From Melghirimyces profundicolus (lineage in GTDB: Bacteria > Bacillota > Bacilli > Thermoactinomycetales > DSM-45169), in NCBI RefSeq assembly GCF_003054245.1, contig NZ_QBKR01000002.1, forward strand, positions 62,001-126,000: DNA of 64,000 nt, given 5' to 3'. The position numbers and the translations under genes were made by a program. Below the pieces are notes generated by a model, which saw only the letters and a program-made list of their open reading frames with translations, was not told the DNA's origin and did not search any database. Each line of letters begins with the position of its first letter. Position 1 is the first letter of the stretch. Below, in pieces: positions 30,317-57,399 of this stretch.

Positions 30317-31657
30317 TCATTCCAGCGCTTCCATCGTCTGTTTCAGCGTATTCCCGATAAACTCCACGTCCTCGTCCGTCGCGGACAGAGGAGGTGACAG
30401 AGTGAGGACGTTGTTGAATCCGGCCACCGTGTCCCCGTTTTTGCCGATGAGAAGCCCCCGGGATTTACAACCGGCGAGGACCCGGGCCACCCGGTCCGGC
30501 GCCAGGGGTTTTTTTCCGGCTTTCTCCTCCACCAGCTCGATCCCCAGCATGAAACCGAAGCGTCTGAGATCGCCCACCCGGGGATGCTCCATGAGCGGCA
30601 GAAGGTCCTCCTCCAGCCGGGAGCCGCTTCTTTCCGCCTGCTCCGGCAGACGCTCTCTCTCCATGATCTCCAGGTTCTTCAACGCCAAGGCGCAGGCGGC
30701 GGGATTGCCGCCGAAGGTGTTGACATGCCGGAAATGCTGGTATTCCTTTTGTTCCTTGAACCGATCGTAGATTTCCTGGCGCACGGCAGTGGCGGAGAGG
30801 GGAAGATATCCGCTGGTCAGTCCCTTGGCCATCGTCACGATGTCGGGACGGAGGTTGAAATTGTGGTGGCCGAACTTTTGGCCGCTCCGACCGAAACCGC
30901 AAATCACCTCATCGACGATGAACAAGACCCCGTGTTCCCGGCAGATGCGCTGCACTTCTTCCATGTAGACGGGATGTGGTACGATCACACCCCCGCCGGA
31001 AATGGCCGGTTCCATGATCACCCCGGCGACGGTCTCTCTGCCTTCCCACAGGATCGTCTCTTCGATTGCAAGGGCACAATCCCGGTTGAACTCCTCAACG
31101 CTCCGCCCCTCCGGCCTCCGGTAACTGTCCGGCGGCCGCACATGGATGAACCCCGGTCCCAGGGGCTCATACCTGTATTTCCGCTGGGCCTGCCCCGTTG
31201 CGGCCAGCGACCCCATGGAATTGCCGTGGTAAGCCCGGTATCGGGAAATGAATTTGTACCGGTCGGATTCTCCGTTTTGCCGGTGGTACTGGCGGGCGAT
31301 CTTGAAAGCCGCTTCATTGGCTTCCGAACCGCTGTTGGAGAAGAAGACGGCGTACTCCCCTCCCAGCCACTCGTTCAGCTTTTCAGCCAGCCGGATCGCC
31401 GGGAGATGGCTCTGGGTCAGAGGATAATAAGGCATCGTCTTCAACTGTTCATAAGCCGCCTCCGCCATCTCCTTGCGACCGTAACCCACATTGACGCACC
31501 AGAGCCCCGCCATCCCGTCCAGATACCGGTTTCCCTCGCTGTCCGTCACCCAGCACCCTTCCGCTTCGGTCACCACCATCTTCTCCCCGTAAGGAGTGAG
31601 ATGGTGCCATACATACCGACGGTCCTTCGCTTTCACATCCCCGGTTTTGAGGGTCAT
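30317..31657 (-). CDS. Class-III omega-amino acid:pyruvate/2-oxo acid aminotransferase
   Basis: A 446-residue PLP enzyme of the class-III (acetylornithine/omega-amino acid) family. Landmarks are LWCVNVGYGRKEMAEAA (about 53), FFSNSGSEANEAAFKIARQYH (about 107-127), the AYHGNSMG motif (about 143), VIMEPAISGGGVIVP, LFIVDEVICGFGRSG (about 245-259) and the Schiff-base Lys in TMAKGLTSGYLPLSA (about 285). It fits beta-alanine:pyruvate or similar transaminases. ATG 31657 lies 8 nt after GGGGAGG; a GTG at 31666 abuts that site. It follows the semialdehyde dehydrogenase by 5 nt, so the pair would convert an omega-amino acid to an acyl-CoA. Confidence 0.88.
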   Translation of the reverse strand: MTLKTGDVKAKDRRYVWHHLTPYGEKMVVTEAEGCWVTDSEGNRYLDGMAGLWCVNVGYGRKEMAEAAYEQLKTMPYYPLTQSHLPAIRLAEKLNEWLGGEYAVFFSNSGSEANEAAFKIARQYHRQNGESDRYKFISRYRAYHGNSMGSLAATGQAQRKYRYEPLGPGFIHVRPPDSYRRPEGRSVEEFNRDCALAIEETILWEGRETVAGVIMEPAISGGGVIVPHPVYMEEVQRICREHGVLFIVDEVICGFGRSGQKFGHHNFNLRPDIVTMAKGLTSGYLPLSATAVRQEIYDRFKEQKEYQHFRHVNTFGGNPAACALALKNLEIMERERLPEQAERSGSRLEEDLLPLMEHPRVGDLRRFGFMLGIELVEEKAGKKPLAPDRVARVLAGCKSRGLLIGKNGDTVAGFNNVLTLSPPLSATDEDVEFIGNTLKQTMEALE

Positions 31658-31662
31658 TCCCG

Positions 31663-33135
31663 TCACCTCCCCGATTCATGGCGGGCGGTCACCATTTTTT
31701 TGCGGGTGTAAAACTCCACTCCGTCCTTTCCGTTGGCATGCAAGTCGCCGTAAAAGGAGTTCTTGTACCCCGAGAAGGGGAAAAAGGCCATGGGGGCGGG
31801 CACACCCAGGTTGATCCCCAGCATACCGGCATCGATTTCGTCCCGAAAGCGGCGGATCGCTTTGGCGCTGTCGGTGAACAGGCAGGCGCCGTTGGCAAAT
31901 TCCGACCGGTTCGCCACATCGATCGCTTCATCCAGATCCTTCACCCGCACGATGGTGAGGACCGGAGCGAAGATCTCTTCCTTCCAAATCGTCATCCCCG
32001 TATCCACCCGGTCGAACAGGGTGGGACCGATGAAGAAACCGCCGCTCCCGGGACCGGCATCCTTCCTGCCGTCCCGGATCAGCCGCGCCCCTTCCTTTTC
32101 CCCTGTTTCGATGTAAGAGCAAGTCCGGTCCTTGTGGGCGGCACGGATCACCGGACCGAGAAGCACCCCCTCCTCCATCCCGTCCCCCATGCGGATGGCC
32201 TCCGCCGCCTCAACCAGTTTCTCCACCAGGACATCGGCCACCTCTCCCACGGCAACCACCACGGAGCAGGCCATGCACCGCTGTCCGGCGGATCCGAAGG
32301 CCGCGTTGATGATGTTGGGCACCGCCTTATCCAAATCGGCATCGGGCATGACGATGGTGTGGTTTTTCGCCCCCGCCAGGGCCTGCACCCGTTTGCCGTG
32401 AGCCGCGGCGGTCTTGTAGACATACTCGGCCACGGGTTGGGAGCCGACGAACGAGACGGCTTTCACCCCGTCGTGCTCCAAAAGGCCGTTCACCACATCC
32501 CGGGCACCGTGAACCACGTTGAGGACCCCGTCGGGAAGACCCGCTTCTCTGAACAGCTCCGCCAGCCGGTTGGCCAACAGGGGCGTCCGCTCCGAGGGCT
32601 TCAGCACGAAAGTATTGCCGCAGGCGATCGCCAGGGGAAACATCCAGCAGGGCACCATCATCGGGAAATTAAAGGGCGTGATCCCGCCGATGACCCCCAG
32701 GGGATACCGGTACATTCCGGATTCGATGTCCGTGGCGATGTCCGGCAGCTGTTCCCCCATCATCAGGGTGGGGACGCCGGCGGCAAACTCCACGCACTCC
32801 ATCCCCCGCTGCACCTCGCCGAGAGCCTCCGCGTAACTTTTGCCGTTCTCCCGGGTCACCATCCGTGCCAGTTCCTCTTGGTGTTCCGTCAGAAGCTGTT
32901 GATACCGAAAAAGGATCCGCGCACGCTGGGGCACCGGTGTCCGCCTCCAGCCCGGAAACGCCTCGGCCGCCGCTTTCACGGCCCGGTCCAGGTCTTGACG
33001 ACCGGAAAGGGGGACATGGGCCAACACCTCTCCCGTCGCGGGATTGGGCACCGTTTCGGTCTCTTCTGAGAGCGCCTCCTCCCAGCGCCCCCCAATCCAG
33101 TTTTTCAATTTGGCGGTCGTTGCCGTCGGTTCCAT
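31663..33135 (-). CDS. CoA-acylating (methyl)malonate-semialdehyde dehydrogenase
   Basis: The 490-residue protein is of the MmsA/IolA type: it oxidises malonate or methylmalonate semialdehyde to acetyl- or propionyl-CoA. Characteristic are KNWIGGRW at the start, [36 protein letters not shown] (about 137-172), [16 protein letters not shown], the catalytic Cys in [11 protein letters not shown] (about 280) and [26 protein letters not shown] take ATG 33135, 8 nt after AGGAAAGGAT. Together with the downstream transaminase it forms a beta-alanine-type catabolic pair. Its promoter shares sequence blocks with the symporter operon promoter. Confidence 0.92.
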
Positions 33136-33180
33136 GGAATCGATCCTTTCCTTATTACTCAAAATTCTGATTCAGTCCTC

Positions 33181-33766: not shown

Positions 33767-35335
33767 TCATGCGGATCCGGATGAAGGTTGGAGGCCCCGA
33801 ATATGCCGTTCGATGTTCCTCGCCTCAGGTGCCAGCTCCCGGGAGCTGTTACGGTCCAGCGCCCTGGAGACCTTACGCCCGCGTTTGGCTGCTTCCACCT
33901 CGTTTTGGATTTGTTGGGAAGGGGCACGTCCGAAGAAATTTCCGATCACCATCCCCAGGAGGGACAGGATCAGCCCGGCGATAAAGGGATGCACCGCGGT
34001 GACGCTTTCCAGGTCCATTTCCGTCCAAAGGATATGGGTAACCGCTCCCAACACCATGGAGCAAACGGCACCCACCCGGTTGGCTTTTTTGGAGTAGACC
34101 GAAGCGACATAAGGCACGATGAAGCTGTTTCCCAACACCCCGAAACCGAAAATGACCAGGTCGAAAACCGAAGGCGGTTCAAATGCGGCGACGGCCACTC
34201 CGATGATCCCGACCAACAGAATCAACAGGCGGGAAACGAGAACCATTCGCGCATGATCGGCCTCTTGATCGATGAACCGTTGATAAATATCCCGGGACAA
34301 AATGGTGCCCGCCTGCATCAACAGAGAATCCGAGGTCGACATTACCGCCGCCATCACGGCGGACAGAAGGATCGCGGCGAGGATCCCGGGGAAAAACGTA
34401 TATGCCAGTTCCGGAATCACCATTTCCGGGTCCGACAGGTTCGGCAACAGCACGATCGCGCACAGGCCCAGAATGTACGGGGCGAACACAAACAACTGGT
34501 TCCAGCTGGCAGACCAGAGGATCGCCGTCCGGGCTGTTTTTGGGCTTTTCATGGACATATGCCGGACCACCACATGAGGAAGACCCATGTATCCGATGGA
34601 GTAAATGAGCACCGCACCCAAAACGACGCCCCATTGGCCCTGATAAGCCAAATCTTTCCCCCAGATACTGAGATAACTGGGGTCCACCTCCGAGAGTGAA
34701 GCGTTTAAGTGGGTCAATCCCCCCAAATGAGTCAGTGCGGCGGCGGTAATCCCCACCACCCCGATCACCATGATGATCGCCTGAACAAAGTCCGTCCACA
34801 CCACCGCCAAGTAACCCCCGAACACCGTGTACAGCACAATGACACCAACCCCGATGAGCAACGCAGGCAGGTAGGACATCCCCGTCAGGGATGTTAACGC
34901 TTTCCCGGCCGCGATGAACTGGGCGAAAACATACACGGAGATAAAAATAATGGAGATCACCGAAGCGATCACCTGCACCAGGGAACTCTCGTACCTCTTT
35001 CCCAAATACTCCACCGGGGACAATGCTCCCAATCTTTCAGACAACCTCCGCATTCGTTTGCCAAGCACGGAAATGTTGATGATGGCCCCTCCCGCATCCC
35101 CGAAAGCGTACCAAAGGGCATACCAACCTTGTTGAAAGGCCAAAGCCGGACCGCCCATAAACATGTAGCCGCTCATGGACGTTCCCTGCATGGTCAGTGC
35201 CGTCACCGCCGGACCCACCGAACGCCCGCCCAGCAAAAAATCATCCACGGAACGGGCGGCCCGTTTTGAAAAGATATAACCGATTAACAGCAATCCGCCA
35301 AGGTAAACCGCAAACACCCACGTTTCCAGATTCAT
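33767..35335 (-). CDS. Sodium:solute symporter (SSS family, PanF-like)
   Basis: The 522-residue protein has about 12-13 membrane segments and SSS-family blocks: FLLGGRSVGPAVTALTMQGTSMSGYMFMG (about 33-61), TVFGGYLAVVWTDFVQAIIM (about 165-185) and ILAAILLSAVMAAVMSTSDSLLMQAGTILSRDIYQRF (about 312-348). It should import a small organic solute with sodium. ATG 35335 follows GGGGGGATTGAA and lies 2 nt before the stop of a tiny membrane protein gene. The co-regulated transaminase pathway suggests an omega-amino acid as cargo; this is inference. Confidence 0.9.
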   Translation of the reverse strand: MNLETWVFAVYLGGLLLIGYIFSKRAARSVDDFLLGGRSVGPAVTALTMQGTSMSGYMFMGGPALAFQQGWYALWYAFGDAGGAIINISVLGKRMRRLSERLGALSPVEYLGKRYESSLVQVIASVISIIFISVYVFAQFIAAGKALTSLTGMSYLPALLIGVGVIVLYTVFGGYLAVVWTDFVQAIIMVIGVVGITAAALTHLGGLTHLNASLSEVDPSYLSIWGKDLAYQGQWGVVLGAVLIYSIGYMGLPHVVVRHMSMKSPKTARTAILWSASWNQLFVFAPYILGLCAIVLLPNLSDPEMVIPELAYTFFPGILAAILLSAVMAAVMSTSDSLLMQAGTILSRDIYQRFIDQEADHARMVLVSRLLILLVGIIGVAVAAFEPPSVFDLVIFGFGVLGNSFIVPYVASVYSKKANRVGAVCSMVLGAVTHILWTEMDLESVTAVHPFIAGLILSLLGMVIGNFFGRAPSQQIQNEVEAAKRGRKVSRALDRNSSRELAPEARNIERHIRGLQPSSGSA

Positions 35336-35336
35336 T

Positions 35337-35483
35337 TCAATCCCCCCTTCTCCCTGAAGAAACTCCATTCTCTTCCCTCTCATCTTCTCTTTTCAGTTTG
35401 AAATACATCAGCAAGGCCAGTCCGATCCAAAGAACCGGCCAAGGAGCGAACCAATAAAAGGTTTCCGCCGGCAAACCGAACAT
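35337..35483 (-). CDS. Tiny membrane protein (48 aa) paired with the symporter
   Basis: ATG 35483 follows AAAAGGAGGGG, the best ribosome site in this region. The product has one hydrophobic span (FYWFAPWPVLWIGLALLMYF) followed by KLKREDEREENG, a typical small accessory subunit layout. Its stop lies just ahead of the SSS symporter start, so translation is coupled. It resembles YhdT/DUF997-type partners of PanF only in size and layout. The gene is easily missed because of its length. Confidence 0.75.
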   Translation of the reverse strand: MFGLPAETFYWFAPWPVLWIGLALLMYFKLKREDEREENGVSSGRRGD

Positions 35484-42111: not shown

Positions 42112-42138
42112 GTCGATCACTCCTCCCTGATTTTCGGA

Positions 42139-44441: not shown

Positions 44442-44508
44442 TACGATCCACCCCTCGTCCACCCAATCGGGTTTATTATTCATATTATTAAGAGGAATGA
44501 TTGTGTTT

Positions 44509-45462: not shown

Positions 45463-45565
45463 AAGAACCCTCTCCTTTTCTGAAAATTCAAGCCGAAGTG
45501 ACCATGGATGATCGATATCAGCGGAATGGCTGACTCCCACATCCCCCCCTTCATTTTCCACATGG

Positions 45566-46249: not shown

Positions 46250-46265
46250 ACTCTTATGGTATACG

Positions 46266-46281
46266 AAATCATATATGATTT
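46266..46281. promoter_or_regulatory. Probable GntR operator
   Basis: AAATCATATATGATTT is a perfect 16-bp palindrome 17 nt upstream of the GntR start codon, the usual place for an autoregulatory site. Confidence 0.6.
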
Positions 46282-46407
46282 TCAAAGAATTTTTCAAAAA
46301 ATTGGAGAAAAACAGCGATTTTTCAACTCACGGGCATTGTGCGGACGAACAGAGAAGGTGATTGACGGAAAATCACCGTATTTTATTGTAATCGTGGATC
46401 ATTCCTA

Positions 46408-46712: not shown

Positions 46713-47921
46713 TCATCCCGTCAAAAACATCAGAGCCGCACGGGCATAGATTTGGGTCGTTTCCACCAGTTGGTCCACGTCCACGTATTCATCGGCATGG
46801 TGGGGAATATGCCGGTCCCCCGCCCCCGTGGTGACGATGGGTACGCCGGCCCGATGGAGAAAGGTCCCGTCGGTGGCGCCGGGAACCCCATTGTACACCG
46901 GATCGTTCTTGGTCACGGCCCGGTAAGAGTGGGCCACTGCCTCCACCACGGGGTCCTCCCGGGCAGTCTCGGTCCAGGGACGCTCCTCGATCACCTCCAG
47001 GGTGGCGTGGAGGTCGGGGTCCTCTTTCCCCAGCCGTTCGAGGATCCGTTCCATCTCCTTCCGCAGGACGTCATGGTCCTGTCCCGGGACGGTCCGCATA
47101 TCCAGGGTGGTCCGGCAGCGGTCGGGCATCACATTGATCTGGGGCTCCCCGGAGACCGGCGCCTGCAGGATGGTGGGAGTGATGCTGGGCCAGCCCAACA
47201 TCGGATGCTTTCCCACCCTCGCCTTCTCCTTCTCCTCCAGGCGGCCCAGTTCGGTCAGGATGCGGGCCATGCGGGGAATCGGATTGATCCCCGTCAGCGG
47301 CATCGCCCCGTGGGCCATCTTTCCCCGGGTTTCCAACACCGCCCGCATCGCCCCTTTTTGCGTGACGCAGATCTGATTTTCCTCCGGTTCGCAAATGATG
47401 GCCCCATCCACTCCCCGGGCCCACCCCCTCCGGATGAAGTCCTTGATCCCGATCATCATCCCTTCTTCATCACAGGGAATGCAGAGGAGAATTTTTCCCT
47501 TGAAGGGCAACCCGGCCCGCTGGATGGCACGGACAGCGGAGATGGCGGCGGCCAGGTTCCCTTTGGTGTCGCAGGATCCCCGTCCGTAGAGCTTCCCGCC
47601 GTGGATGGCTCCCCCGAAGGGGTCGTAACTCCAGGAATCCCGGTCCCCCTCGGTGACCACGTCGGTATGTCCTTCAAAGAGCAGGGTTTTCCCCGGGACG
47701 CCGGAATCGTAAAAGGCGATCACATTGGGCCGCCCCGGAACCACTTCCTCGTAATGGACGGTCAGGCCCATCCCCTTCAGCACCTCCTCCACGAAGCGGG
47801 CCACCCGCTCTTCGTTCCCCCCTTCCTCCGGCCGGTAGACACTGGGAATCCGAACCAGTTCCTGCGTCAGGGAGACGACTTCCCTCTCATCGACATGGGA
47901 CAATACGCGATCCGGCGACAT
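46713..47921 (-). CDS. M20-family metallopeptidase/deacylase (ArgE/DapE type)
   Basis: A 402-residue zinc hydrolase. KTLLFEGHTDVV (about 77-88) contains the first metal His and Asp, YGRGSCDTKGN (about 112) the bridging Asp, and ILLCIPCDEEG (about 145) the catalytic Glu pair; TTGAGDRHIPHHADEYVDV holds the last His. Such enzymes remove acyl or aminoacyl groups from amino-nitrogen. It is the last gene of the nine-gene operon, 6 nt after the P1 peptidase (AAGGAG start site). The specific substrate is unknown. Confidence 0.88.
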   Translation of the reverse strand: MSPDRVLSHVDEREVVSLTQELVRIPSVYRPEEGGNEERVARFVEEVLKGMGLTVHYEEVVPGRPNVIAFYDSGVPGKTLLFEGHTDVVTEGDRDSWSYDPFGGAIHGGKLYGRGSCDTKGNLAAAISAVRAIQRAGLPFKGKILLCIPCDEEGMMIGIKDFIRRGWARGVDGAIICEPEENQICVTQKGAMRAVLETRGKMAHGAMPLTGINPIPRMARILTELGRLEEKEKARVGKHPMLGWPSITPTILQAPVSGEPQINVMPDRCRTTLDMRTVPGQDHDVLRKEMERILERLGKEDPDLHATLEVIEERPWTETAREDPVVEAVAHSYRAVTKNDPVYNGVPGATDGTFLHRAGVPIVTTGAGDRHIPHHADEYVDVDQLVETTQIYARAALMFLTG

Positions 47922-47927
47922 CGGCGT

Positions 47928-48887
47928 TCACTCCTTGTATTCGGAATGTGAGGGCAGTCCGCCCGCCCCTGCGGCGGCTTTCACCGCCCGGACCACCGCT
48001 TCGGCCAACACTTCCGCAGAGAGGGCCCCCACCACATCCACCGCCGCCTCCACCTTTCCCGTGGCCAAGGCAAACACGGTGTCCCCGTCGTTCATGGTGT
48101 GAACCGGGTAAATGGTTCGGGCGAGACCGTCGTGGGCCATTTGGGCCACTTTGTTGGCCCGGGCTTTGGTCAGGCGGGCGTTGCTGGCCACCACCGCGAG
48201 GGTTGTGTTGGTGCCGGGGAGGTTCTTCCCGGCGTCGTTTCGCGCCATGCAGTCGATGAAATCCATAAATCCGCCCTGCCCGTCCCGGGCTCCCGCCAGG
48301 GTTTCCCCCGTCCGGGGATCACGCACCTCCCCCACGGCGTTGACGGCGACGAGGGCCCCCACCGTCAGTCCGTTTGCGAGCCGCCGGGAGGCGGTGCCCA
48401 GACCGCTTTTCATGGCGGCTTCCATCCCGCAAAACTTTCCGACGGAAGCTCCGCACCCGGCACCGACGTTGCCCTCCGCCACCGGTTCTTTACCGGCCCT
48501 CCGGGCGGCTTCGATTCCCATGGCCGCGTCGGGCCGGACCCGGGCGGAACCCAGGGAGAGATCGAAGAGGACGGCGGCGGGAACGATGGGGACCACTCCC
48601 ACCCCCACGTCAAACCCCTCCCCCTCTTCCTCCAGGAAACGCATCACCCCGGTGGCCGCCTCCAGTCCGTAGGCGCTGCCCCCGGTGAGACAGACGGCGT
48701 GCACCTGTTCCACCAAGTTGATGGGATTCAACAAGTCCGTCTCCCTTGTCCCCGGGGCGGAACCCCGGACGTCCGCTCCCGCCACGGCGCCTCCCGGTGT
48801 CCGGATCACCGTGCAGCCGGTGAGCGCCTCCGGATCCTCCGCCTGACCGACTTCAATCCCCGGCACGTCGATGATCGAGCTTTTCAC
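47928..48887 (-). CDS. P1-family N-terminal-nucleophile peptidase/amidase (DmpA-like)
   Basis: A 319-residue protein of the family that includes DmpA aminopeptidase, BapA beta-peptidase and nylon-oligomer hydrolases. It begins IIDVPGIEVGQAED and has CLTGGSAYGLEAATGVMRFLEE (about 79-100), LANGLTVGALVAVNAVGEV (about 188) and PGTNTTLAVVASNARLTK (about 236), where self-cleavage before the Thr nucleophile is expected. I start at GTG 48887 with GGGGGGTTGAGG upstream; it overlaps the ECF S gene by 35 nt. It likely hydrolyses an amide after uptake. Confidence 0.85.
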   Translation of the reverse strand: MKSSIIDVPGIEVGQAEDPEALTGCTVIRTPGGAVAGADVRGSAPGTRETDLLNPINLVEQVHAVCLTGGSAYGLEAATGVMRFLEEEGEGFDVGVGVVPIVPAAVLFDLSLGSARVRPDAAMGIEAARRAGKEPVAEGNVGAGCGASVGKFCGMEAAMKSGLGTASRRLANGLTVGALVAVNAVGEVRDPRTGETLAGARDGQGGFMDFIDCMARNDAGKNLPGTNTTLAVVASNARLTKARANKVAQMAHDGLARTIYPVHTMNDGDTVFALATGKVEAAVDVVGALSAEVLAEAVVRAVKAAAGAGGLPSHSEYKE

Positions 48888-49443
48888 CCTCAACCCCCCT
48901 GGAAACTTTGGATGTTTGCCTGCCGCTCCCGATCCGCTTCCAGACACCCACCACCGCCACGGTCACAATGACGGATACGACCGCTTCCGGGATGCCGTTG
49001 GTCACGGCGATGGTAAGGGCCACCCCGGAGGAAAGATAGCCCCGGAGCACGGCCACCAAAAGGACCAGCACCGTGTTGGTCAGGGAGCCGATAAAACCCG
49101 CCAGACCGACGGCCAACAGCTGGTTGAACCGCTTCAATCCCACATAGGTGAAGTAGGCCGCCACCCCGATGAAAAGCCTCGGGATGATTGCCACCAGGGG
49201 ATCTTTGAAAAGGGGAACCGTCGCGTTCAAAAAGGAGGACACTCCGAAGATCAACCCAATGACCAGACCCACTCCCCACCCTTCCAGGATGCCGCCGATC
49301 ACCGCGGGAATGTGCATGATGGTGGCGTTCCCCGCCGCCGTCGGCACCGGGATGAAGCCCAGCCGGGTGACCCCGAGCAGAATGGAGATGGCCCCCAGAA
49401 CGCCTGCGATCACAATTTTCCTCACCGTCAGCCGATTGTTCAT
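48853..49443 (-). CDS. ECF transporter S component (substrate-binding membrane subunit)
   Basis: A 196-residue integral membrane protein of about six helices. The stretch LGFIPVPTAAGNATIMHIPAVIGGILEG (about 28-55) is a typical S-component substrate region, and IPRLFIGVAAYFTYVGLKRF follows. It determines which vitamin-like or small solute is bound. The ligand cannot be read from sequence; the catabolic neighbours suggest a nutrient rather than a vitamin. ATG 49443 has GAGGGGGAAG upstream. Confidence 0.85.
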   Translation of the reverse strand: MNNRLTVRKIVIAGVLGAISILLGVTRLGFIPVPTAAGNATIMHIPAVIGGILEGWGVGLVIGLIFGVSSFLNATVPLFKDPLVAIIPRLFIGVAAYFTYVGLKRFNQLLAVGLAGFIGSLTNTVLVLLVAVLRGYLSSGVALTIAVTNGIPEAVVSVIVTVAVVGVWKRIGSGRQTSKVSRGVEGEKLDHRRAGD

Positions 49444-49465
49444 AGCTCTTCCCCCTCGATTTGAA

Positions 49466-50299
49466 TTATGGCAACCACAGAATAACCGCCGCCAGGGCCA
49501 GACTGATTCCGAGCAGCCCCCAGTCCGCTCCCTTGGAGCGGTAACGGGTGTAGACCGACCGTTCTTCCCCGGGCACGTAGCCCCGGGATTCCATGGCGAG
49601 GATCAGATCTTCCGCCCGGGTCAGGGCCAGGTTGAACAGCGGAATGATCAGGGGAAACATGTCCTTGGTGCGCCGGATGATCCGCCACCACTCCCCGCTT
49701 CCGAACTCTGCCCCCCGGGAAGCCTGGGCTTTCATCAGCTTCTCCATCTCCATGGCGAAAGTGGGGACGAACCGGATGGCGATGGTCAGCACCAGGGCGA
49801 AGGCGTGAACGGGAAATTTCACCTTCTCCAGAGGGGACAAAAGGCACTCCATGCCCCGGGTCAGATCGGTGGTGGAGGTGGAGAAGGTGAGCACGCTGGA
49901 CAGGAAGATCACCTCCACAAAACGCATCGCCGACACGATCACCAGCCGGATGCTGTCCCCGGTGATCCGGATGACCCCGTACTCGAAGTGGAGGGTCCCG
50001 CCGGGGGCGATGGAACCGGAGAAGAAAAACTGTAACAGGGCGATGATGATAATGAAGGGAACCGCCGGTTTGATCCCCGACACCCCGTATCCGACGGGGA
50101 TCCGGATCAGGGGAAACAGGGCGAGACAGAACGCCAGCGCAAAGAGGTTCCCGACATAGGTGTTGCAAAAGGCGATGGCCAACACCAACACCCCGAAAGC
50201 CACCAGCTTGAACCGGGGGTCAAAGCGGTGAACGGCGGAATCCGTGGGGATGTACTGGCCGATGGTCATGTTGCGGGTCAATTCAAAAGCCGAAGCCAT
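49466..50299 (-). CDS. ECF transporter transmembrane subunit EcfT
   Basis: A 277-residue protein with four to five membrane spans. The cytoplasmic coupling motifs ASRGAEFGSG (about 192) and AMESRGYVPGEER (about 236) are the two Ala-Arg-Gly-like coupling motifs of EcfT. IGQYIPTDSAVHRFDPRFKL is the usual N-terminus. It sits between the S component and EcfA2, completing the module. Confidence 0.92.
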   Translation of the reverse strand: MASAFELTRNMTIGQYIPTDSAVHRFDPRFKLVAFGVLVLAIAFCNTYVGNLFALAFCLALFPLIRIPVGYGVSGIKPAVPFIIIIALLQFFFSGSIAPGGTLHFEYGVIRITGDSIRLVIVSAMRFVEVIFLSSVLTFSTSTTDLTRGMECLLSPLEKVKFPVHAFALVLTIAIRFVPTFAMEMEKLMKAQASRGAEFGSGEWWRIIRRTKDMFPLIIPLFNLALTRAEDLILAMESRGYVPGEERSVYTRYRSKGADWGLLGISLALAAVILWLP

Positions 50300-50303
50300 G
50301 TTC

Positions 50304-51170
50304 TCACTCCCTTTCCCGGATCAGGGAGAGGATCTCCCCGGCGGCTTCCTCGGTTAAATAGGCCCCGGGATTGACTGGGTGTCCGCGGCGATGGAGGGCG
50401 TGGAGAATCTCCACCGCCTCCGGCGGACCCAGCTGGTGTTCGGCGAGAAGGCGGGTGTCGCCGAAGATTTCCCGGGGCGTGCCTTCCGCCGCCACCCGTC
50501 CTTCGGCCATCACACAGACCCGGTCGGCCAGGGTGGCCACCTCTTCCATGTTGTGGGTCACGAAGAGGACCGTCATCTTCTCCTTCCGGTTGAGTTCCCG
50601 GATCCGGTTCAGGAGTTCGTTCCGGGAGTACGGATCCAGTCCCGCCGTCGGCTCGTCGAGCACCAGGAGGTCCGGCTTCAGCGCCAACACCCCCGCCAGG
50701 GCCACTTTCCGTTTCTGACCGCCGCTCAGGGCGAAGGTGGGACGGTCCTTGTATTCGTCGAAGGAAATCCCCACCAGTTCCATCGCCCACCGGACCCGTT
50801 CCCTCACCTCCTGAAGGGGGTATCCCATCTTGAAGGGACCGTAGGCGACATCGTCTCCCACCAGCTTTTCGAAGATCTGGTCCTCGGGATTTTGGAAAAC
50901 CAGTCCCACCTTGCGCCGGAGGGCTTTCACATCCGGTTTCGGGCCGCTCAGATGGAGGCCGTCCACGGTTACCTCCCCGGACTGGGGAAGGAGCAGGCCG
51001 TTCAGATGCTGGATCAGGGTGGATTTGCCGGAGCCCGTATGGCCGATGATGGCCAGGCACTCCCCCCTTCCCGCCTCCAGGCTGACCTCCCGGAGGGCGA
51101 CGTGTTCCAGAGGGGTGCCTTTCATGTAGGTGTGACTCAGATTCCGGATCGTGAGAAAGGGTTCCCTCAT
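50304..51170 (-). CDS. ECF transporter ATP-binding subunit (EcfA2-like)
   Basis: A 288-residue ABC ATPase: Walker A IGHTGSGKSTLI (about 41), Q-loop FQNPEDQIFE, signature LSGGQKRKVALAG (about 144) and Walker B LLVLDEPTAGLDP. The IFEKLVGDDVAYGPF segment is typical for A2. ATG 51170 overlaps the EcfA1 stop (ATGA) and has GGAGGTGAACC upstream. Its C-terminal region is slightly extended. It pairs with the next upstream ATPase. Confidence 0.92.
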   Translation of the reverse strand: MREPFLTIRNLSHTYMKGTPLEHVALREVSLEAGRGECLAIIGHTGSGKSTLIQHLNGLLLPQSGEVTVDGLHLSGPKPDVKALRRKVGLVFQNPEDQIFEKLVGDDVAYGPFKMGYPLQEVRERVRWAMELVGISFDEYKDRPTFALSGGQKRKVALAGVLALKPDLLVLDEPTAGLDPYSRNELLNRIRELNRKEKMTVLFVTHNMEEVATLADRVCVMAEGRVAAEGTPREIFGDTRLLAEHQLGPPEAVEILHALHRRGHPVNPGAYLTEEAAGEILSLIRERE

Positions 51171-52033
51171 CCGTGGTTCACCTCCACCTTCCCGCAAGTG
51201 AAGCGCTCCACTGCTTCCACCAGCTCCTCCCGCCGATAGAGATCATCGGGGAACCCGGGGTGACCGGCATGGACCCGGGAGGCGATCCGACCCGCCTCCG
51301 GCACATCCAGACGGAGACGGCTCAGCTGTTCCCGCTCCCGGAACACCTCCCGCGGCGTCCCTTCCAGGGCAATCCGGCCCTTTTCCAGGACGATCACCCG
51401 GTCGGCTTCCGCCGCTTCCGACATGTGGTGGGTGACGCTGACCACCGCGATCCCCTCCCCGTGCAACCGGCGGACCACCTGGAGAATCTCCTTCCGCCCG
51501 AAGCTGTCCAGCATGCTGGTCGCCTCGTCCAATACCAGGCAGTCGGGCCGCATCGCCAGGATCCCGCCGATCGCCACCCGCTGTTTCTGCCCCCCGGACA
51601 GGTGGTGGGGAGGTCGCTTGCGGAAGTCCTCCATCCCCACCGCCCGAAGAGCGTCCGTCACCCGGTCGGCCATTTCTTCCGGCGGAACACTCAGGTTTTC
51701 CAAGCCGAAAGCCACGTCTTCCTCCACGATGGTGGCCACCAACTGGTTGTCCGGGTGTTGGAACACCATCCCCACCCGCCGGCGGATCTCCCGGAGGTGT
51801 TTCTTCTCCCGGGTATCCAGGCCCTGGACCCAAACCGCCCCTTCGTCGGGAAGCAAAAGACCGTTCAGGTGTTTGGCCAGCGTCGATTTTCCGGAGCCGT
51901 TGTGGCCGATGACAGCGACGTGCTCCCCCCGGTTCACCCGAAGGGTGATCCCGCGGAGGACGGGAAACGTCTCCCCGTGGGTCCGGTAGGAAAAATAAAG
52001 ATCCTTGACTTCGATCAAGGGGGATGCCGACAT
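51167..52033 (-). CDS. ECF transporter ATP-binding subunit (EcfA1-like)
   Basis: A 288-residue ABC ATPase: Walker A IGHNGSGKSTLAKHLNGLL (about 41), Q-loop FQHPDNQLVATIVEEDVAFG, signature LSGGQKQRVAIGG (about 145) and Walker B CLVLDEATSMLD. The NQLVATIVEEDVAFG segment is characteristic of A1. ATG 52033 follows AAAAGGAGGGAGAAGCAC. The gene is 17 nt downstream of the SDR gene, so the transporter belongs to the catabolic operon. Confidence 0.92.
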   Translation of the reverse strand: MSASPLIEVKDLYFSYRTHGETFPVLRGITLRVNRGEHVAVIGHNGSGKSTLAKHLNGLLLPDEGAVWVQGLDTREKKHLREIRRRVGMVFQHPDNQLVATIVEEDVAFGLENLSVPPEEMADRVTDALRAVGMEDFRKRPPHHLSGGQKQRVAIGGILAMRPDCLVLDEATSMLDSFGRKEILQVVRRLHGEGIAVVSVTHHMSEAAEADRVIVLEKGRIALEGTPREVFREREQLSRLRLDVPEAGRIASRVHAGHPGFPDDLYRREELVEAVERFTCGKVEVNHG

Positions 52034-52050
52034 GTGCTTCTCCCTCCTTT

Positions 52051-52800
52051 TCAAATGCCGCGCCCACCGTCCACATTCAGGATCTCGCCGGTGATTTTTC
52101 GGGCGCCGGCGAGATACAGGACGGCCTCTGCGATATCCTCCGGCTCGATCAGGAAACCGAGGGGGACGCTTTCCACGAAGATCTTCTGAATGTCGCGCTC
52201 CGCCGTCTTCCCTTCCCCCACAAACCGTTTCAGCATGGGGGTTTGGGCGGGACCCGGATTGATGGCATTCACCCGGATCCCGTCGGGGGCCAGTTCCAGG
52301 GCGAGGGCCTGGGTCAGGCTCAGGACCGCCCCCTTGGAGGCGCAGTAGGCGGTCAGTCCGGGACGCGCACGGACGCCGGCGATGGAAGCGATGTTGATGA
52401 TGGTGCCGCCCCCGGTTCGTTTCATGTGAGGAACCGCATGCTTTACCGTGAGATAGACGGACTTGGTGTTGACCTTCAGAATCCGGTCCCACTCGGTTTC
52501 TTCCAGTTCTTCCACGGGAGTGAACGTCATGGGGACGCCGGCGCAGTTGACCAACATGTCGATCCGGCCGAATCCTTCGATGACCTGCCGCACCATCCGT
52601 TCCACCGATTCGTCGATGGAGACATCCGTCACCGCCGCCATCGCCGTCGGACCCAGTGCCTGTGCCGTCTCCCGGGCGGCCGTCTCATGGAGATCGGCCA
52701 CCGCCACCCGGGCCCCTTTCCGCACCAGGGATTGGGCGGTGGCCCGTCCCATGCCGGAGCCGCCTCCCGTCACGATGGCCACCTTTTCCTTCAGATTCAC
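52051..52800 (-). CDS. Short-chain dehydrogenase/reductase (SDR)
   Basis: A 249-residue classical SDR: cofactor motif VTGGGSGMGRA (10-20), NAG motif VNCAGVP (about 85), catalytic IASIAG...YCASKG (Ser about 140, Tyr about 153, Lys 157) and the C-terminal LAGARKITGEILNVDGGRGI. Likely an alcohol dehydrogenase or ketoreductase with unknown substrate. It starts with GTG 52800, overlapping the aldehyde dehydrogenase stop by 4 nt. Confidence 0.9.
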   Translation of the reverse strand: MNLKEKVAIVTGGGSGMGRATAQSLVRKGARVAVADLHETAARETAQALGPTAMAAVTDVSIDESVERMVRQVIEGFGRIDMLVNCAGVPMTFTPVEELEETEWDRILKVNTKSVYLTVKHAVPHMKRTGGGTIINIASIAGVRARPGLTAYCASKGAVLSLTQALALELAPDGIRVNAINPGPAQTPMLKRFVGEGKTAERDIQKIFVESVPLGFLIEPEDIAEAVLYLAGARKITGEILNVDGGRGI

Positions 52801-54230
52801 AGGTTGAACACCACCATGCGGAGTTCGGTCATCTCCTCGATGGTATAGCGGGGCCCTTCTTTTCCGAGACCGCTGTTTTTGGTTCCGCCGTAGGGCATCA
52901 CGTCGTTCCGGTAGGTGGAGACGTCGTTGATGATCACTCCGCCGTATTCCAGCTCCCTGGATGCCCGCATCGCCACGTTCAGACTGCTGGTGAAAATCCC
53001 CGCCTGGAGGCCGTAATCCGAATCGTTGGCCAATTCGAAGGCTTCCTCCAGGGTCCGGTAGGGAGTGACGGTCACCACCGGGGCAAAAACCTCCCGGTTA
53101 TTCACTTTCATCTCCGGTGTGGTCTGAACGAGCACCACCGGCGGCAGCAAGGCTCCCTGCCGCTTCCCTCTCCGGAGGGCTTCCGCCCCCCCGGCGATCG
53201 CCTCCTCCACCCAAGCTTCCGCCCGCTCCGCTTCTCTTTCGCTGATCATCGGTCCCACATCGGTCTCCGGATCTTCCGGATCCCCCACCTTCAGCCCGTC
53301 GACCCGCCGGAGGAACCGGTCCATGAACGCCTCCAACCGCTTTTCATGAACCAGGATCCGTTGGACGGCGATGCAGGCCTGTCCGGCGTTGTGGAAACTG
53401 CGGGCAGCGATCTGCCGGGCGGCCAGGTCCAGGTCGGCGTCTTCGTGAACCAGATTCGGGGAGTTGTTCCCCAGCTCCAGCGTGACCGGTCGCAGCCCGC
53501 TTGCCTCCTTGATCCGCTGTCCCACCTCCGCCGAGCCGGTGAAGGTGTAAAGGGCGATCCGTTTGTCCCGAAGGAGCCACTCCCCCGCTTCCCGGCCCGA
53601 ACCGGTGATCACCTGGACATGACCGGGGGGAAGCCCCGCCTCCTCCAAGAGAGTGACCAACTGGAAGGCGGCAAGGGGCGTCTCCGAGGAAGGTTTCAAC
53701 ACCACCGTGTTGCCCGAAGCGATGGCGGGGGCCACCTTGTGGACATTTAACAGCCACGGATAATTGAAGGGTGTGATGGCGCCGATCACTCCCCGGGGCA
53801 CCCGGATCGCCCAGCCGGTCCGATTCTCCGAGCCCGGTGTGGCATGAAGGGGGACCATTTCTCCTGAGATGCGCTTCGCTTCCTCCGCGGACAGGCGCAG
53901 GGTGTTGATCACCCGGTCCATTTCCCCCCGGGCGTCCTTCCGCGTCTTCCCCACCTCCCGGACGAGGGAAAGTTCCAGAGTCTCCCGCCGCTCCTCCGCC
54001 AGGCGGGAAGCCGCAAGCAGGATCTCAGAGCGTTGAAAGGGTGTCAGGGAGCTTTTCCGGAAGGTCTCCTCCGCCCGGGTGACGGCCTCTTCCACCTGGT
54101 GCCGCTCCGCCCGGCCCACTTCGGCGATCACATCCCCGGTGTATTTGTTTTTTACCGGGATCCACTCCCGTGTCTCCACCCATTCTCCCCGAATGTACAG
54201 AGGGTAACGCTGGACTTGCTGGACGGTCAT
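52797..54230 (-). CDS. NAD(P)-dependent aldehyde dehydrogenase
   Basis: A 477-residue ALDH. PRGVIGAITPFNYPWLLNVHKVAPAIASGNTVVLKPSS (about 144-181) binds cofactor, ELGNNSPNLV has the general-base Glu (about 247) and NAGQACIAVQR the nucleophilic Cys (about 281). It belongs to the succinate-semialdehyde/aromatic-aldehyde group, not the CoA-acylating one. Asn replaces Gly in ELGNNSP, as in related phosphonoacetaldehyde-type enzymes. ATG 54230 follows GGAGGAGAGCAC and overlaps the dehydrogenase upstream as ATGA. Confidence 0.9.
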   Translation of the reverse strand: MTVQQVQRYPLYIRGEWVETREWIPVKNKYTGDVIAEVGRAERHQVEEAVTRAEETFRKSSLTPFQRSEILLAASRLAEERRETLELSLVREVGKTRKDARGEMDRVINTLRLSAEEAKRISGEMVPLHATPGSENRTGWAIRVPRGVIGAITPFNYPWLLNVHKVAPAIASGNTVVLKPSSETPLAAFQLVTLLEEAGLPPGHVQVITGSGREAGEWLLRDKRIALYTFTGSAEVGQRIKEASGLRPVTLELGNNSPNLVHEDADLDLAARQIAARSFHNAGQACIAVQRILVHEKRLEAFMDRFLRRVDGLKVGDPEDPETDVGPMISEREAERAEAWVEEAIAGGAEALRRGKRQGALLPPVVLVQTTPEMKVNNREVFAPVVTVTPYRTLEEAFELANDSDYGLQAGIFTSSLNVAMRASRELEYGGVIINDVSTYRNDVMPYGGTKNSGLGKEGPRYTIEEMTELRMVVFNL

Positions 54231-55318
54231 GTGCTCTCCTCCTTTGAACCCCGTTTCAAGATCTGCCGTCGGATGGCCTCCCCCATCTCCCGGGTGGAAG
54301 CGGATCCCCCCAGGTCCGGGGTTCGGACGGTTCCTTCCACCAACACCTCCTCCACCGCCTCCAGGATCAACCCGGCCTCCTCCCGGTGTCCCAGGTGCTC
54401 CAGCATCAGACTGACGCTCCAGATCTGGGCGATCGGGTTGGCGATGCCTTTTCCGGCGATATCCGGGGCGGAACCGTGGATCGGTTCGAACATCGACGGA
54501 TACCGCCCGTCGGGATTGAGATTGCCGGAAGGAGCCAGCCCCAGCCCTCCGACGATGGCCGCTCCGAGGTCCGTCAGGATATCCCCGAACAGATTGCTGG
54601 CCACCACGACTTCAAAGACCTGGGGACGGGTGACGAAGCAGGCGGCCAGGGCATCCATGTGGACCTTCCACGTTTCGATCCCGGGATGCTCCTGTGCCAC
54701 CTCGCGGAAAATCTCGTCCCAAAAGGGCATGGTGTGGTTGATCCCGTTGGACTTGGTCGCCGCGGTCACGTGGGTTTTCCCGGTGGTCCGCGCCCACTCG
54801 AAGGCGTATCGAATCACCCGTTCCGTCCCGTGCCGGGTGAAGACGCTGTTCTGCACCGCCAGTTCATGGGAAGTCCCCCGGTGGAGACGACCGCCGGAAT
54901 CCGAGTACTCCCCTTCGGTGTTCTCCCGGATCACCACGAAGTCCAGTTCCTCCGGCCCCCGGTCCCTCAGGGGACTCTCGATCCCCCTCAACAGCTTGAT
55001 CGGCCGGTAGTTGATATACTGGTCGAACCCGCGCCGAATGGGGAGGATCAGCTCCCAGATGGAGACAGGGTCCGGCACGTCCGGAGCCCCGATCGCCCCC
55101 AGCTGGATCGCGTCGAAATCCCGGAGGACGCTTAAGCCGTCTTCCGGCATCATCCGCCCGTGCTTCCGGTAGTGGTCACAGTTCCAGTCGAATGCCTGCC
55201 TTCGGAACCGGAGCCCCCCGTGCAGTTCCTCCACCGCGTGCAGGACTCTCAGCCCTTCCATCATCACCTCCGGTCCCACCCCGTCTCCGGGGAGGACCGC
55301 CAACCGGTACTCTTTCAT
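54227..55318 (-). CDS. Isopropylmalate/tartrate/D-malate-type decarboxylating dehydrogenase
   Basis: A 363-residue metal-dependent beta-decarboxylating dehydrogenase. It begins YRLAVLPGDGVGPEVMMEGLRV and shows RRGFDQYINYRPIKLL (substrate-binding Arg residues), FVVIRENTEGEY and LFGDILTDLGAAIVGGLGLAPSGN, then MFEPIHGSAPDIAGKGIANP. This layout suits tartrate/D-malate dehydrogenase (DmlA/TtuC-like) better than LeuB. ATG 55318 follows AAAGGAG. It opens the operon divergent to the PucR regulator. Confidence 0.9.
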   Translation of the reverse strand: MKEYRLAVLPGDGVGPEVMMEGLRVLHAVEELHGGLRFRRQAFDWNCDHYRKHGRMMPEDGLSVLRDFDAIQLGAIGAPDVPDPVSIWELILPIRRGFDQYINYRPIKLLRGIESPLRDRGPEELDFVVIRENTEGEYSDSGGRLHRGTSHELAVQNSVFTRHGTERVIRYAFEWARTTGKTHVTAATKSNGINHTMPFWDEIFREVAQEHPGIETWKVHMDALAACFVTRPQVFEVVVASNLFGDILTDLGAAIVGGLGLAPSGNLNPDGRYPSMFEPIHGSAPDIAGKGIANPIAQIWSVSLMLEHLGHREEAGLILEAVEEVLVEGTVRTPDLGGSASTREMGEAIRRQILKRGSKEEST

Positions 55319-55425
55319 CGAAACGCTCCTTTGACGCAGTTTTCTGTCATTAGCTGATTTGGAAGCCTCTTGGAACGGCAGACTTATAGTTTAGTATAAT
55401 CAATAGAAAGAATACACGCATTAGT

Positions 55426-55682
55426 TAGAAGCGTTGTAATTTAATGTTCGTTTCGAGAAAGGGGAAGCGTTTACCCAAAGTAGCGACTTTGCTGTCCTAC
55501 CCAGTGGAGAATCAGCCTGCAAGGGCGTTTAGGGGCAAAAGCTGCTCTGTGTTGCATCCGAAGGCGTTTTGCCCCTGCCCGCAGCAGGATGATTCGGAGC
55601 GGACAGTGCAACCATCACTGCAGGACAGCAGCCGGAGCGGCTTTGGGTAAATGCTGCCAATCACTTTTTCACAACGCTTCTA
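55426..55682. repeat. MITE-like repeat with perfect 12-bp terminal inverted repeats (full copy)
   Basis: The ends are TAGAAGCGTTGT (55426-55437) and ACAACGCTTCTA (55671-55682), exact inverted repeats beginning and ending in TA, as expected for insertion at TA. A second, inner pair (AGCGTTTACCCAAAG at 55466 and CTTTGGGTAAATGCT at 55641) matches 14 of 15. The interior is shared with 60247-60557 in opposite orientation but lacks about 55 nt near the right end. No transposase is encoded. It sits 62 nt before the pucR-type start, inside the divergent promoter region. Confidence 0.88.
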
Positions 55683-55743
55683 TACAAAATGTTAGGTGAA
55701 TACCTACGTCATCTTGACATCACCGCAGGGGAGGAAGAAAGTG

Positions 55744-57399
55744 ATGCACTCCACCACCCGCTTCACGGTCCGGGACGCCCTCGACCGTCCTCTCTTCGCG
55801 ACGGCCCGGGTGTTGGCCGGAAAGGACAGCCTCGATCGGACCATCCGTTGGGTTCACATCCTGGAAGTGACCCGCTTCGAGCATCTGATCAGCGGCGGGG
55901 AGATGATTCTCACCACGGGCATCGCCTTCCGGTCGGGAACGGATTCCCCCCTCGCCTACCTCCGGAAACTGATTGACCTGGGGGTCTCCTGCCTCTGCAT
56001 CGAACTGGGGGAGTATTTCACCGAACTCCCCCGGGAGATGGTGGAACTGGCGGAGTCCCGGGGCTTTCCTTTGGTCGTCTTTGAGGAAACCGTCCGCTTT
56101 GTCGACATCACCCAGGACCTCCACTCCCTCCTGATCCACCGCCACTACGACCGTCTCAAGCAACTGGAAAGTCTGTCCCGGACATTCCACCGGCTCACCC
56201 TGTCACCCCAGGGGTTGGAGAACATCCTGAAGTTGCTCCACACTCATACCGGCCACACGGTCCTCTTTGTACCGGCCCAGGGCCGTCCCCGATCCGTGCC
56301 CATGCTGCCCCCGGAAGAACGCGATTCTCTCTTCGTCCGCATCCAGGATGACCTGGCTGGGGCAGAAAAGGATTCCCCCCCTTACCGACGGGAACACGCA
56401 GGACGTCCGGTCCTCCTTCAACCCGTTCAGGCCATGGGGCAAACCTGGGCCTTTCTGGGGCTGGTCTGTCACGCCACGCCGGAAGAATACGAGTCGCTCA
56501 TTCTGGACTGGTCCTCCCTCGCCATCGCCCAGGACCTTCTCCGGAAGCGTTACCTGGAGGAACGAAAGCTCCACACGGAGCACCTGTGGGTGGACGACTG
56601 GCTCCACGACCGGATGGCGGAATCCGATCTCGAGTACTACCTGGGCAGCGACTACGACACGCTCGCCTCCACCCCCTTCCGGGTGTGCCTTCTGGAACTG
56701 CCGGAAGGAAACCGGACGACATCCGCTCACCGGGAGCTGGACGCCTTCCGTTACGAGATCTCCCTCATCGTCCGCTCCACCTTTGAGAAACAGGGATTCC
56801 GCCCCTTCATCACCCTGCATAACGCCCGGTTGGCCGTCATCGCTTTCAACCGGCGATCCGAAGCGTCCGAACGGGACCGCCTTCGCCAGGTGTTTGAGAA
56901 CATCCGCCGTCTTTGCCGCCAGGCGCAGTGGAACTTTCATCCCCTGATGGGTGCCGGCCGCCTCTGCCGGAATCTCCTCCGGGCTCCCGAATGCCATCGG
57001 GAAGCCCACCAGGTCCTGACCGTCAACCGAAGGGAACCCGTCTCCCCCTTCTATGAAGACCTGGGAATCTACCAGCTCCTTCTCCACCCCGGCGGCAACC
57101 AAAACCTCACTTCCTTTGTGCGGGAACACCTCGGCCCCCTGATCAACCACGACCGGGAAAAAGGAAGCGACCTCCTCACCACGTTGAAGGTCTACCTCGA
57201 CCACAACGGTTCCAAAAAGGAGGTCGCCGAAAAACTCTACATCGTCCGCCAGTCCCTCTATTACCGCCTGCAGAAAATCGGGAGCCTGTTGGGCGAAGAT
57301 TATCTGTCCCCGGATAAGAAGCTCACCCTTCAGGTGGCCCTCCGGGCCTGCCGGATGGTGTATCCGGAGTTGGTAAAGGAGACGGGAGAAAAGACATAA
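55744..57399 (+). CDS. PucR-family transcriptional regulator
   Basis: The 551-residue protein has an N-terminal PucR ligand-type domain (FTVRDALDRPLFATARVLAG...IRWVHILEVTRFEHLISGGEMILTTG, about 9-75), a central GAF/linker region and a C-terminal helix-turn-helix (LLTTLKVYLDHNGSKKEVAEKLYIVRQSLYYRLQKI, about 483-518). PucR-type regulators respond to purine, amino-acid or amide catabolites. ATG 55744 follows GGGGAGGAAGAAAG; GTG 55741 is possible. It is divergent from the nine-gene operon and is its probable regulator. Confidence 0.93.
   Translation: MHSTTRFTVRDALDRPLFATARVLAGKDSLDRTIRWVHILEVTRFEHLISGGEMILTTGIAFRSGTDSPLAYLRKLIDLGVSCLCIELGEYFTELPREMVELAESRGFPLVVFEETVRFVDITQDLHSLLIHRHYDRLKQLESLSRTFHRLTLSPQGLENILKLLHTHTGHTVLFVPAQGRPRSVPMLPPEERDSLFVRIQDDLAGAEKDSPPYRREHAGRPVLLQPVQAMGQTWAFLGLVCHATPEEYESLILDWSSLAIAQDLLRKRYLEERKLHTEHLWVDDWLHDRMAESDLEYYLGSDYDTLASTPFRVCLLELPEGNRTTSAHRELDAFRYEISLIVRSTFEKQGFRPFITLHNARLAVIAFNRRSEASERDRLRQVFENIRRLCRQAQWNFHPLMGAGRLCRNLLRAPECHREAHQVLTVNRREPVSPFYEDLGIYQLLLHPGGNQNLTSFVREHLGPLINHDREKGSDLLTTLKVYLDHNGSKKEVAEKLYIVRQSLYYRLQKIGSLLGEDYLSPDKKLTLQVALRACRMVYPELVKETGEKT

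Follow-up and report, generated by a model that had tools for sequence, protein, structure and literature searches.

In Pseudomonas, (R)-pantoate is converted to 4-oxopantoate, then to (R)-3,3-dimethylmalate and finally to 2-ketoisovalerate, a route worked out enzymatically decades ago. The Pseudomonas pantothenase uses an acyl-enzyme, and the P. fluorescens pathway comprises, besides a pantothenase, the pantoate, aldopantoate and dimethylmalate dehydrogenases. Bacterial degradation of pantothenate (vitamin B5) has been studied enzymatically since the 1960s (references within PMC10393543), and that 2023 paper states that the pantothenase protein is unknown and shows pantothenate cleavage by several prototrophic bacteria. 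Among the literature matches listed, titles, abstract beginnings and term counts gave no gene assignment for pantothenate degradation; few subscription papers were covered, and an earlier assignment is possible. Here, a nine-gene operon of Melghirimyces profundicolus with a divergent PucR-type regulator gene is described. It lies in a stretch of 64,000 nucleotides (the window; contig NZ_QBKR01000002.1, positions 62,001 to 126,000, assembly GCF_003054245.1) and, judging by its genes and their relatives, is very probably a pantothenate catabolic operon.

Described systems resemble parts of this locus. Structures of ECF-PanT, an energy-coupling factor (ECF) transporter, are available from L. delbrueckii and L. 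brevis, and W69, together with R101 and N139 of the L. delbrueckii protein, is important in pantothenate binding (PMC7755397). In B. subtilis, PanU (YhfU) serves ECF-driven pantothenate uptake (PMC11487621). ThnT, an S58 family hydrolase of thienamycin (antibiotic) synthesis, trims the pantetheinyl group to cysteamine, reportedly only once it is on the carbapenem core (PMC6097109).

The operon shares with ECF-PanT (6zg3, 4rfs) a four-subunit ECF module with a PanT-like S component and two of the three key residues, but its module lies in an apparently catabolic operon of a host with panBCD, and the pocket holds Phe instead of Trp. ECF-driven pantothenate uptake would also be shared with PanU, although the window S component fits the PanT type. 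The S58 protein belongs to the family of ThnT, and the proposed cut is likewise at the beta-alanyl-cysteamine amide; its role would be in pantetheine breakdown and not in antibiotic synthesis. Its family also includes nylon-66 hydrolase 9cxr and NylC, of which 9cxr is the top-scoring solved relative. The depositors' name refers to nylon, whereas the neighbours of the window gene indicate pantothenate. The TTC-type dehydrogenase belongs, above the curated cut-off, to the tartrate/D-malate dehydrogenase family (TIGR02089; 3flk), but operon-linked members form a clade of their own with 3,3-dimethylmalate as the proposed substrate. The predicted reactions, intermediates and end product are those of P. 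fluorescens, whose pathway is without attached genes in the literature examined; in the window, hydrolysis would fall to a metal-dependent M20 enzyme and uptake to an ECF transporter.

Gene content, order and co-conservation

The nine genes lie on the minus strand, from 55318 down to 46713, in the order TTC-type dehydrogenase (TTC), aldehyde dehydrogenase (ALDH), short-chain dehydrogenase/reductase (SDR), EcfA1, EcfA2, EcfT, EcfS, S58/P1 hydrolase and M20 hydrolase, with pucR divergent (Table 1). A single transcript is likely because adjacent genes overlap or sit 30 bases or less apart. Where exactly the S58 gene starts is uncertain (about 48887 to 48947); it shares some bases with ecfS at the 3' end of the latter. 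An earlier note on this DNA had listed these genes and proposed high-affinity uptake, and degradation, of an amide-bearing nutrient. Each gene that it named is present near the position it gave, family searches agree, and its malate-type dehydrogenase and P1 peptidase are the TTC and S58 genes. The proposal itself is supported, as the genes are co-conserved and fit in family and context.

The proposed pathway begins with the ECF transporter, whose PanT-like S component would bring in pantothenate, perhaps pantetheine. The S58 hydrolase would split pantetheine into pantothenate and cysteamine, and the M20 hydrolase would split pantothenate into pantoate and beta-alanine. The SDR would oxidize the C4 alcohol of pantoate to the aldehyde (4-oxopantoate), the ALDH would convert this to (R)-3,3-dimethylmalate, and TTC would yield 2-ketoisovalerate, CO2 and NADH. 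Beta-alanine would pass to acetyl-coenzyme A (CoA) via an aminotransferase and a CoA-acylating (methyl)malonate-semialdehyde dehydrogenase (MMSDH) encoded at 30317-33162. The operon encodes members of enzyme classes that hydrolyse amides, oxidize alcohols and aldehydes, and carry out oxidative decarboxylation; every substrate and activity, like the role given to PucR, is predicted from context and homology. The earlier note knew of no described system of this kind. As to the chemistry this does not hold, for it has been described since the 1960s; as to the genes of the pathway, which had been missing, it does. Binding of a standard vitamin, which the note had named as counter-evidence, loses that meaning, as the best reading makes the vitamin pantothenate itself the nutrient.

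Gene content, gene order, co-conservation, family membership and the transporter swaps described below are direct observations. Gene orders were verified by tblastn in 40 loci (numbers with G, L, C and f are our handles for genomes, loci, contigs and families). Co-conservation had been set beforehand as a test: M20 and TTC co-occur, and the same nine genes stand in identical order in five further genomes of Bacilli (G054, G181, G247, G279, G302), which makes the association more than chance. Variants of this order are also found. S58 is absent from the run in G098 and G326, as are both S58 and ALDH in G318. G078 has TTC-ALDH-SDR-M20-EcfA1-A2-T-S-S58, and G018 has TTC-SDR-ECF-S58-M20 and then a different ALDH, with pucR divergent. 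G075 has TTC-ECF-M20, with S58 elsewhere (L159, L116), and G121 and G207 have TTC-ALDH-SDR-M20 followed by a symporter.

Co-occurrence was examined in 299 genomes of the class, with M20 matches (E ≤1e-110) in 33, TTC matches (1e-100) in 85 and S58 matches (1e-80) in 42. TTC is present in 32 of the 33 M20 genomes versus 53 of the 266 others (p 5.9e-19). With TTC restricted to proteins of at least 65% identity, the figures are 23 of 33 versus 2 of 266 (p 1.8e-24) and, when genomes are divided by S58 instead, 20 of 42 versus 5 of 257 (p 2.6e-15). These p-values are not independent and are guides only. By coordinates, 17 of the 33 M20 genomes have a TTC homologue within about 10 kb of M20. The genome searches scored first candidates only and missed S58 in G259, G330 and G298, where it is visible in L234, L246 and L245; other misses are possible. 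The search count of seven genomes with M20 and without S58 is too high. At most four belong there (G111, G121, G192, G207), as judged from the genome search and one M20 stretch each (L235, L222, L224, L225).

TTC scores 544 bits against the cut-off of 470 for NCBIfam TIGR02089 (tartrate dehydrogenase), an NCBI name that is an annotation and not a tested substrate. Of 49 TTC rows, 31 reach 65% identity, and 28 of these have a partner gene within the 1.5-kb flank, as do 3 of the 18 below 65%. The 28 distinct high-identity proteins form one clade (support 96/99), and all are operon-linked in wider stretches. The tree kept 45 of the 49 rows, without the repeats L200, L204 and L209 (equal to L126, L127 and L130) and the fragment L136; L126 and L212 were labelled linked since the wider loci L148 and L236 show partners. 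ALDH of the window type lies next to TTC in 24 of these 28 linked rows at or above 65% identity. In G018, G192, G231, G256 and G111, a different ALDH is found instead. The SDR is conserved together with TTC and ALDH. TTC-type enzymes accept tartrate and D-malate, and because the family acts on (R)-malate-like acids, a role on (R)-3,3-dimethylmalate would fit in stereochemistry.

Transporters of the operon and its relatives

All four ECF subunits (EcfA1, EcfA2, EcfT and the S component) are encoded in the operon. In a comparison with every solved protein chain, EcfS has just two matches at E ≤1, 6zg3 (7.5e-8) and 4rfs (2.3e-7), which we take to be the ECF-PanT structures of L. delbrueckii and L. 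brevis. A family profile of 22 members reaches 1.5e-19 with 6zg3 and 1.2e-14 with 4rfs; two unrelated chains come next (0.13 and 0.95), ahead of the other S components found (4hzu_S 6.2, RibU 8.3). By this profile comparison, the S component is closer to PanT chains than to other S components. R89 and N123, matching R101 and N139 of L. delbrueckii PanT, are kept in all 38 rows of an alignment of the window protein and 37 others (one repeat, L245 = L106). The S component appears PanT-like, with an aromatic residue kept at the Trp position, and is not a proven PanT. Biotin was rejected as a substrate; the sole other PF12822 match in the genome lies elsewhere and is BioY-like by eye.

Two related operons have a panF gene instead of the ECF genes. 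They are transcribed in the order PanF-M20-TTC-SDR-ALDH (G192) and PanF-M20-SDR-ALDH (G111), and their PanF proteins score 696 and 720 bits against an equivalog cut-off of 328 (sodium/pantothenate symporter). The operon type is linked to pantothenate transporters by both the PanT-like EcfS and these PanF proteins. The TTC-ALDH-SDR triad occurs with a tripartite ATP-independent periplasmic (TRAP) transporter in G054, where the nine operon genes and the TRAP genes form one run, and in five Brevibacillus genomes (G061-G065), where TTC (67-68% identity) lies at a separate locus with ALDH and SDR, then DctP, DctQ and DctM. One of the Brevibacillus genomes has an extra open reading frame, transposase-like by eye, between TTC and ALDH. 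For the TRAP binding proteins encoded in G054 and G061, the nearest entries are 4pdh, 4p9k/4pak, 4pdd and 4nq8, which we take to be pantoate/erythronate-type binders. Pantoate/D-erythronate is among the TRAP ligands found by screening, according to a 2018 review (PMC5812351). TTC-ALDH-SDR-DctP-DctQ-DctM also lies at the start of a contig in G080, a genome that gave no match in the M20 search, as expected if pantoate itself is imported. G231 and G256 carry M20-TTC-SDR-ALDH, two ATP-binding cassette (ABC) ATPases, S58, other oligopeptide-type ABC genes (a call checked on the binding protein of G231) and then PucR; these operons (L226, L228) may import a larger pantothenate conjugate. Pantothenate is proposed as the substrate because the PanT-like S component, the PanF swap, the TRAP binders and the CoA-metabolism neighbours of related modules agree.

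The two hydrolases and alternative readings

M20 deacylases cut N-acyl amino acids bearing a free carboxylate, and pantothenate (N-pantoyl-beta-alanine) is a substrate of this type. H85, D118, E152, E153, E178 and H374 of M20, presumably the metal-binding/catalytic residues, are invariant in 35 aligned rows (one repeat, L245 = L106). In the PanF operons, M20 is the hydrolase and no S58 lies within the stretch examined. M20 relatives of 46-47% identity are found beside MMSDH in Thermus and near preA and hydA in Deinococcus; the Deinococcus proteins would act on N-carbamoyl-beta-alanine. M20 is the likely pantothenase.

The S58 protein is 46% identical to ThnT by tblastn (85% of the query), and 169 of 319 aligned positions are identical by MAFFT, which gives 46-53% overall by method. 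Among solved chains, nylon-66 hydrolase 9cxr is best (1.7e-72), and ThnT chains score 8e-61. Relatives were collected by a scan of contigs with the S58 query (best 80 of 241) with 15 stretches from relatives, and in this set the module EcfA1-A2-T-S-S58-M20 recurs in Brevibacillus and others. The module of a Chloroflexi metagenome-assembled genome (MAG; L096) has panE and panB as divergent neighbours, and coaBC is close to S58-EcfS in a Symbiobacterium MAG (L114). A gene for type III pantothenate kinase (CoaX) comes after S58 and a PanT-like gene in Peptoniphilus (L088, L089, L107), a Tissierellia MAG (L112), Acetoanaerobium (L144) and C. difficile (L265). The kinase was identified by NCBIfam in L088, L112 and L144, by annotation in C. 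difficile and by 88-92% identity to L088 in L089 and L107. E. eligens (L266) has a P1 peptidase gene together with one for an ECF S component. CoaX of B. subtilis is without pantetheine kinase activity (PMC11487621). Because that enzyme cannot phosphorylate pantetheine, S58-EcfS-CoaX fits conversion of pantetheine to pantothenate, and the Clostridia arrangement is likely a pantetheine or pantothenate salvage module. For the window S58, we favour pantetheine hydrolysis with some reserve; nothing in the proposal is less certain than how S58 and M20 share the two hydrolyses.

Several observations weigh against pantothenate catabolism as proposed, and the hardest to reconcile with it are M20 genomes that have no linked TTC, Chloroflexi MAGs that have M20 and gave no panC or panD match, and the Trp-to-Phe exchange. 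The PanT Trp (W69 in PMC7755397; residue 70 of chain 6zg3_C by our count) is replaced by Phe in 37 of the 38 EcfS rows and falls in a gap in one, and the PanT-like gene of Clostridia is just 33-50% identical. In G121 and G092, the symporter that lies beside or near M20 is not a PanF; both symporters match MctP, far below its cut-off. G167, G259 and G330 have ALDH-SDR-ECF-S58-M20 with no TTC in the stretch examined. G230 has ECF-S58-M20 and no match in the TTC search, where a tool miss is possible, and G022 has M20-S58-ECF with all of its TTC genes non-linked. Of the M20 genomes, 17 of 33 belong to one family (f27), which is why the p-values are not independent. The Chloroflexi MAGs G068 and G069, of unstated completeness, have M20 and gave no match in panC and panD searches, which is odd for a cell that would destroy its own vitamin. 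Finally, a metal-dependent M20 would not form the acyl-enzyme of the Pseudomonas pantothenase.

This last point bears on an alternative that keeps the pathway but makes S58 the pantothenase, with M20 acting on another compound, e.g. pantothenoyl-cysteine or another N-acyl amino acid. Being N-terminal nucleophile amidases, S58 enzymes would form such an acyl-enzyme, and S58 stands with ECF genes and EcfS, with M20 not nearby, in L029, L031, L060 and L072 among the S58 stretches examined. We judge the exchange unlikely. G121 and G207, like the PanF operons, have M20 and no S58 within the stretch examined, TTC of at least 65% identity occurs in 0 of the 16 genomes with an S58 match and no M20 match (the genome searches miss some genes), and ThnT, the closest named relative in function, works on the cysteamine side and not on the pantoyl side (PMC6097109).

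It is more improbable still that the operon serves cofactor salvage, with pantothenate freed from pantetheine conjugates for CoA and the dehydrogenases as unrelated passengers. The Clostridia arrangement resembles salvage, and hydrolysis to pantothenate would be useful where CoaX is without pantetheine kinase activity, as in B. subtilis (PMC11487621). The window genome, however, carries panB, panC and panD, and uptake is therefore not needed to cover an auxotrophy. Moreover, several families have M20, a transporter and the dehydrogenases in a single run, and the dehydrogenases co-occur with M20.

Least probable of all is a reading in which the PanT-like S component has changed specificity and the operon degrades a nylon-like oligomer or a hydroxy-acid amide other than pantothenate. 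This reading could draw on the higher score of 9cxr than of ThnT, on the acceptance of tartrate and D-malate by TTC-type enzymes and on the Trp-to-Phe change within the pocket, but PanF replacing ECF, the CoA-metabolism neighbours and the pantoate/erythronate-type TRAP binders all indicate pantothenate. Nylon oligomers and beta-peptides, considered as substrates from the 9cxr match, were set aside on gene context.

Regulator, flanking genes and biological meaning

Table 1. Genes of the operon, its divergent regulator and the beta-alanine block, with positions in the window
Feature	Position	Strand	EC number (presumed)	Family evidence
TTC-type beta-decarboxylating dehydrogenase; proposed (R)-3,3-dimethylmalate dehydrogenase	54227..55318	-	1.1.1.84	Iso_dh; TIGR02089
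Aldehyde dehydrogenase; proposed 4-oxopantoate (aldopantoate) dehydrogenase	52797..54230	-	1.2.1.33	PF00171 Aldedh
SDR; proposed pantoate 4-dehydrogenase	52051..52800	-	1.1.1.106	PF13561/PF00106
EcfA1, ECF transporter ATPase	51167..52021	-		TIGR04520, 367.8 bits vs cut-off 315
EcfA2, ECF transporter ATPase	50304..51164	-		TIGR04521, 349.1 bits vs cut-off 330
EcfT, transmembrane coupling protein	49466..50299	-		PF02361 (CbiQ/EcfT), E 3.3e-31
EcfS; proposed pantothenate-binding S component, PanT-like	48853..49443	-		PF12822
S58/P1 N-terminal-nucleophile hydrolase; proposed pantetheine hydrolase	47928..48911	-		PF03576
M20 metallohydrolase (ArgE/DapE type); proposed pantothenase	46713..47921	-	3.5.1.22	Peptidase_M20; TIGR01910, 266 bits vs cut-off 217.6
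PucR-type regulator, divergent	55696..57399	+		PF07905, PF13556 (PucR + HTH_30)
Class III aminotransferase; proposed beta-alanine aminotransferase	30317..31666	-		NF005812, 755.8 bits vs cut-off 488
CoA-acylating MMSDH; proposed beta-alanine branch	31663..33162	-		TIGR01722, 636 bits vs cut-off 448.5
Sodium:solute symporter, possibly in beta-alanine block	33767..35383	-		below panF and PutP equivalog cut-offs

PucR probably activates transcription upon pantothenate or a breakdown product. Among relatives, G018 and G021 also have a PucR gene divergent from TTC, G075 has one near SDR-ALDH, and G231 and G256 carry one on the same stretch at a distance of about 9 kb. The pucR-TTC intergenic region holds, at 55423-55684, a repeat element whose ends are inverted and whose predicted fold is very stable (-119.5 kcal/mol). 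The repeat is found at 87-95% identity in at least 39 further places of the genome (40 of 304 first-look candidates scored), and many copies carry an insert near position 215. The window holds another copy at 60255-60557 and a fragment at 26329-26378, and one copy lies near another pucR gene on contig C39. A search of this repeat against Rfam gave no match at E ≤0.1, and a promoter scan did no better than shuffles. The repeat looks like a miniature inverted-repeat transposable element and may affect the operon promoters.

The block at 30317-35383 (aminotransferase, MMSDH and symporter) has members near pucR-TTC in two relatives. In G018, homologues of MMSDH (59%) and the aminotransferase (65%) are directly beside pucR and the operon, and G021 has, near pucR-TTC, a symporter with 83% identity to that of the window. 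Aminotransferase homologues (56-57%) also lie 6-8 kb from M20 in G259 and G330. An MMSDH near the G022 operon was dropped as a beta-alanine gene; its neighbours resemble a myo-inositol cluster by eye. Next to the window operon, the genes at 40639-46297 form, by eye, an ordinary 4-hydroxyphenylacetate-type catabolic cluster (hydroxylase, HpaE-like ALDH, FAH-type, DapA-like and GntR).

Genes for pantothenate biosynthesis show some irregularities. The window genome has three PanD family matches (contigs C10, C11 and C8), and the Brevibacillus genomes G061-G065 have two each. Peptoniphilus G070, G071 and G072 have panC and gave no match in panB and panD searches, an odd pathway remnant. The idea that Peptoniphilus are full pantothenate auxotrophs is weakened, as panC is present.

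The proposal combines known chemistry and newly proposed genes with an unexpected transporter and hydrolase class. We consider it reasonably likely that the operon is a complete system for growth on vitamin B5, composed of an M20 pantothenase, an S58 pantetheinase shared with the Clostridia salvage module, three dehydrogenase genes and an ECF transporter that feeds catabolism. If so, there would be named candidates for the pantothenase and the three dehydrogenases of the pathway, and an ECF vitamin transporter would serve catabolism instead of cofactor supply. Bacteria that consume vitamin B5 would be recognisable from their genomes, and a natural role would be suggested for some of the S58 proteins that carry peptidase or nylon hydrolase annotations.

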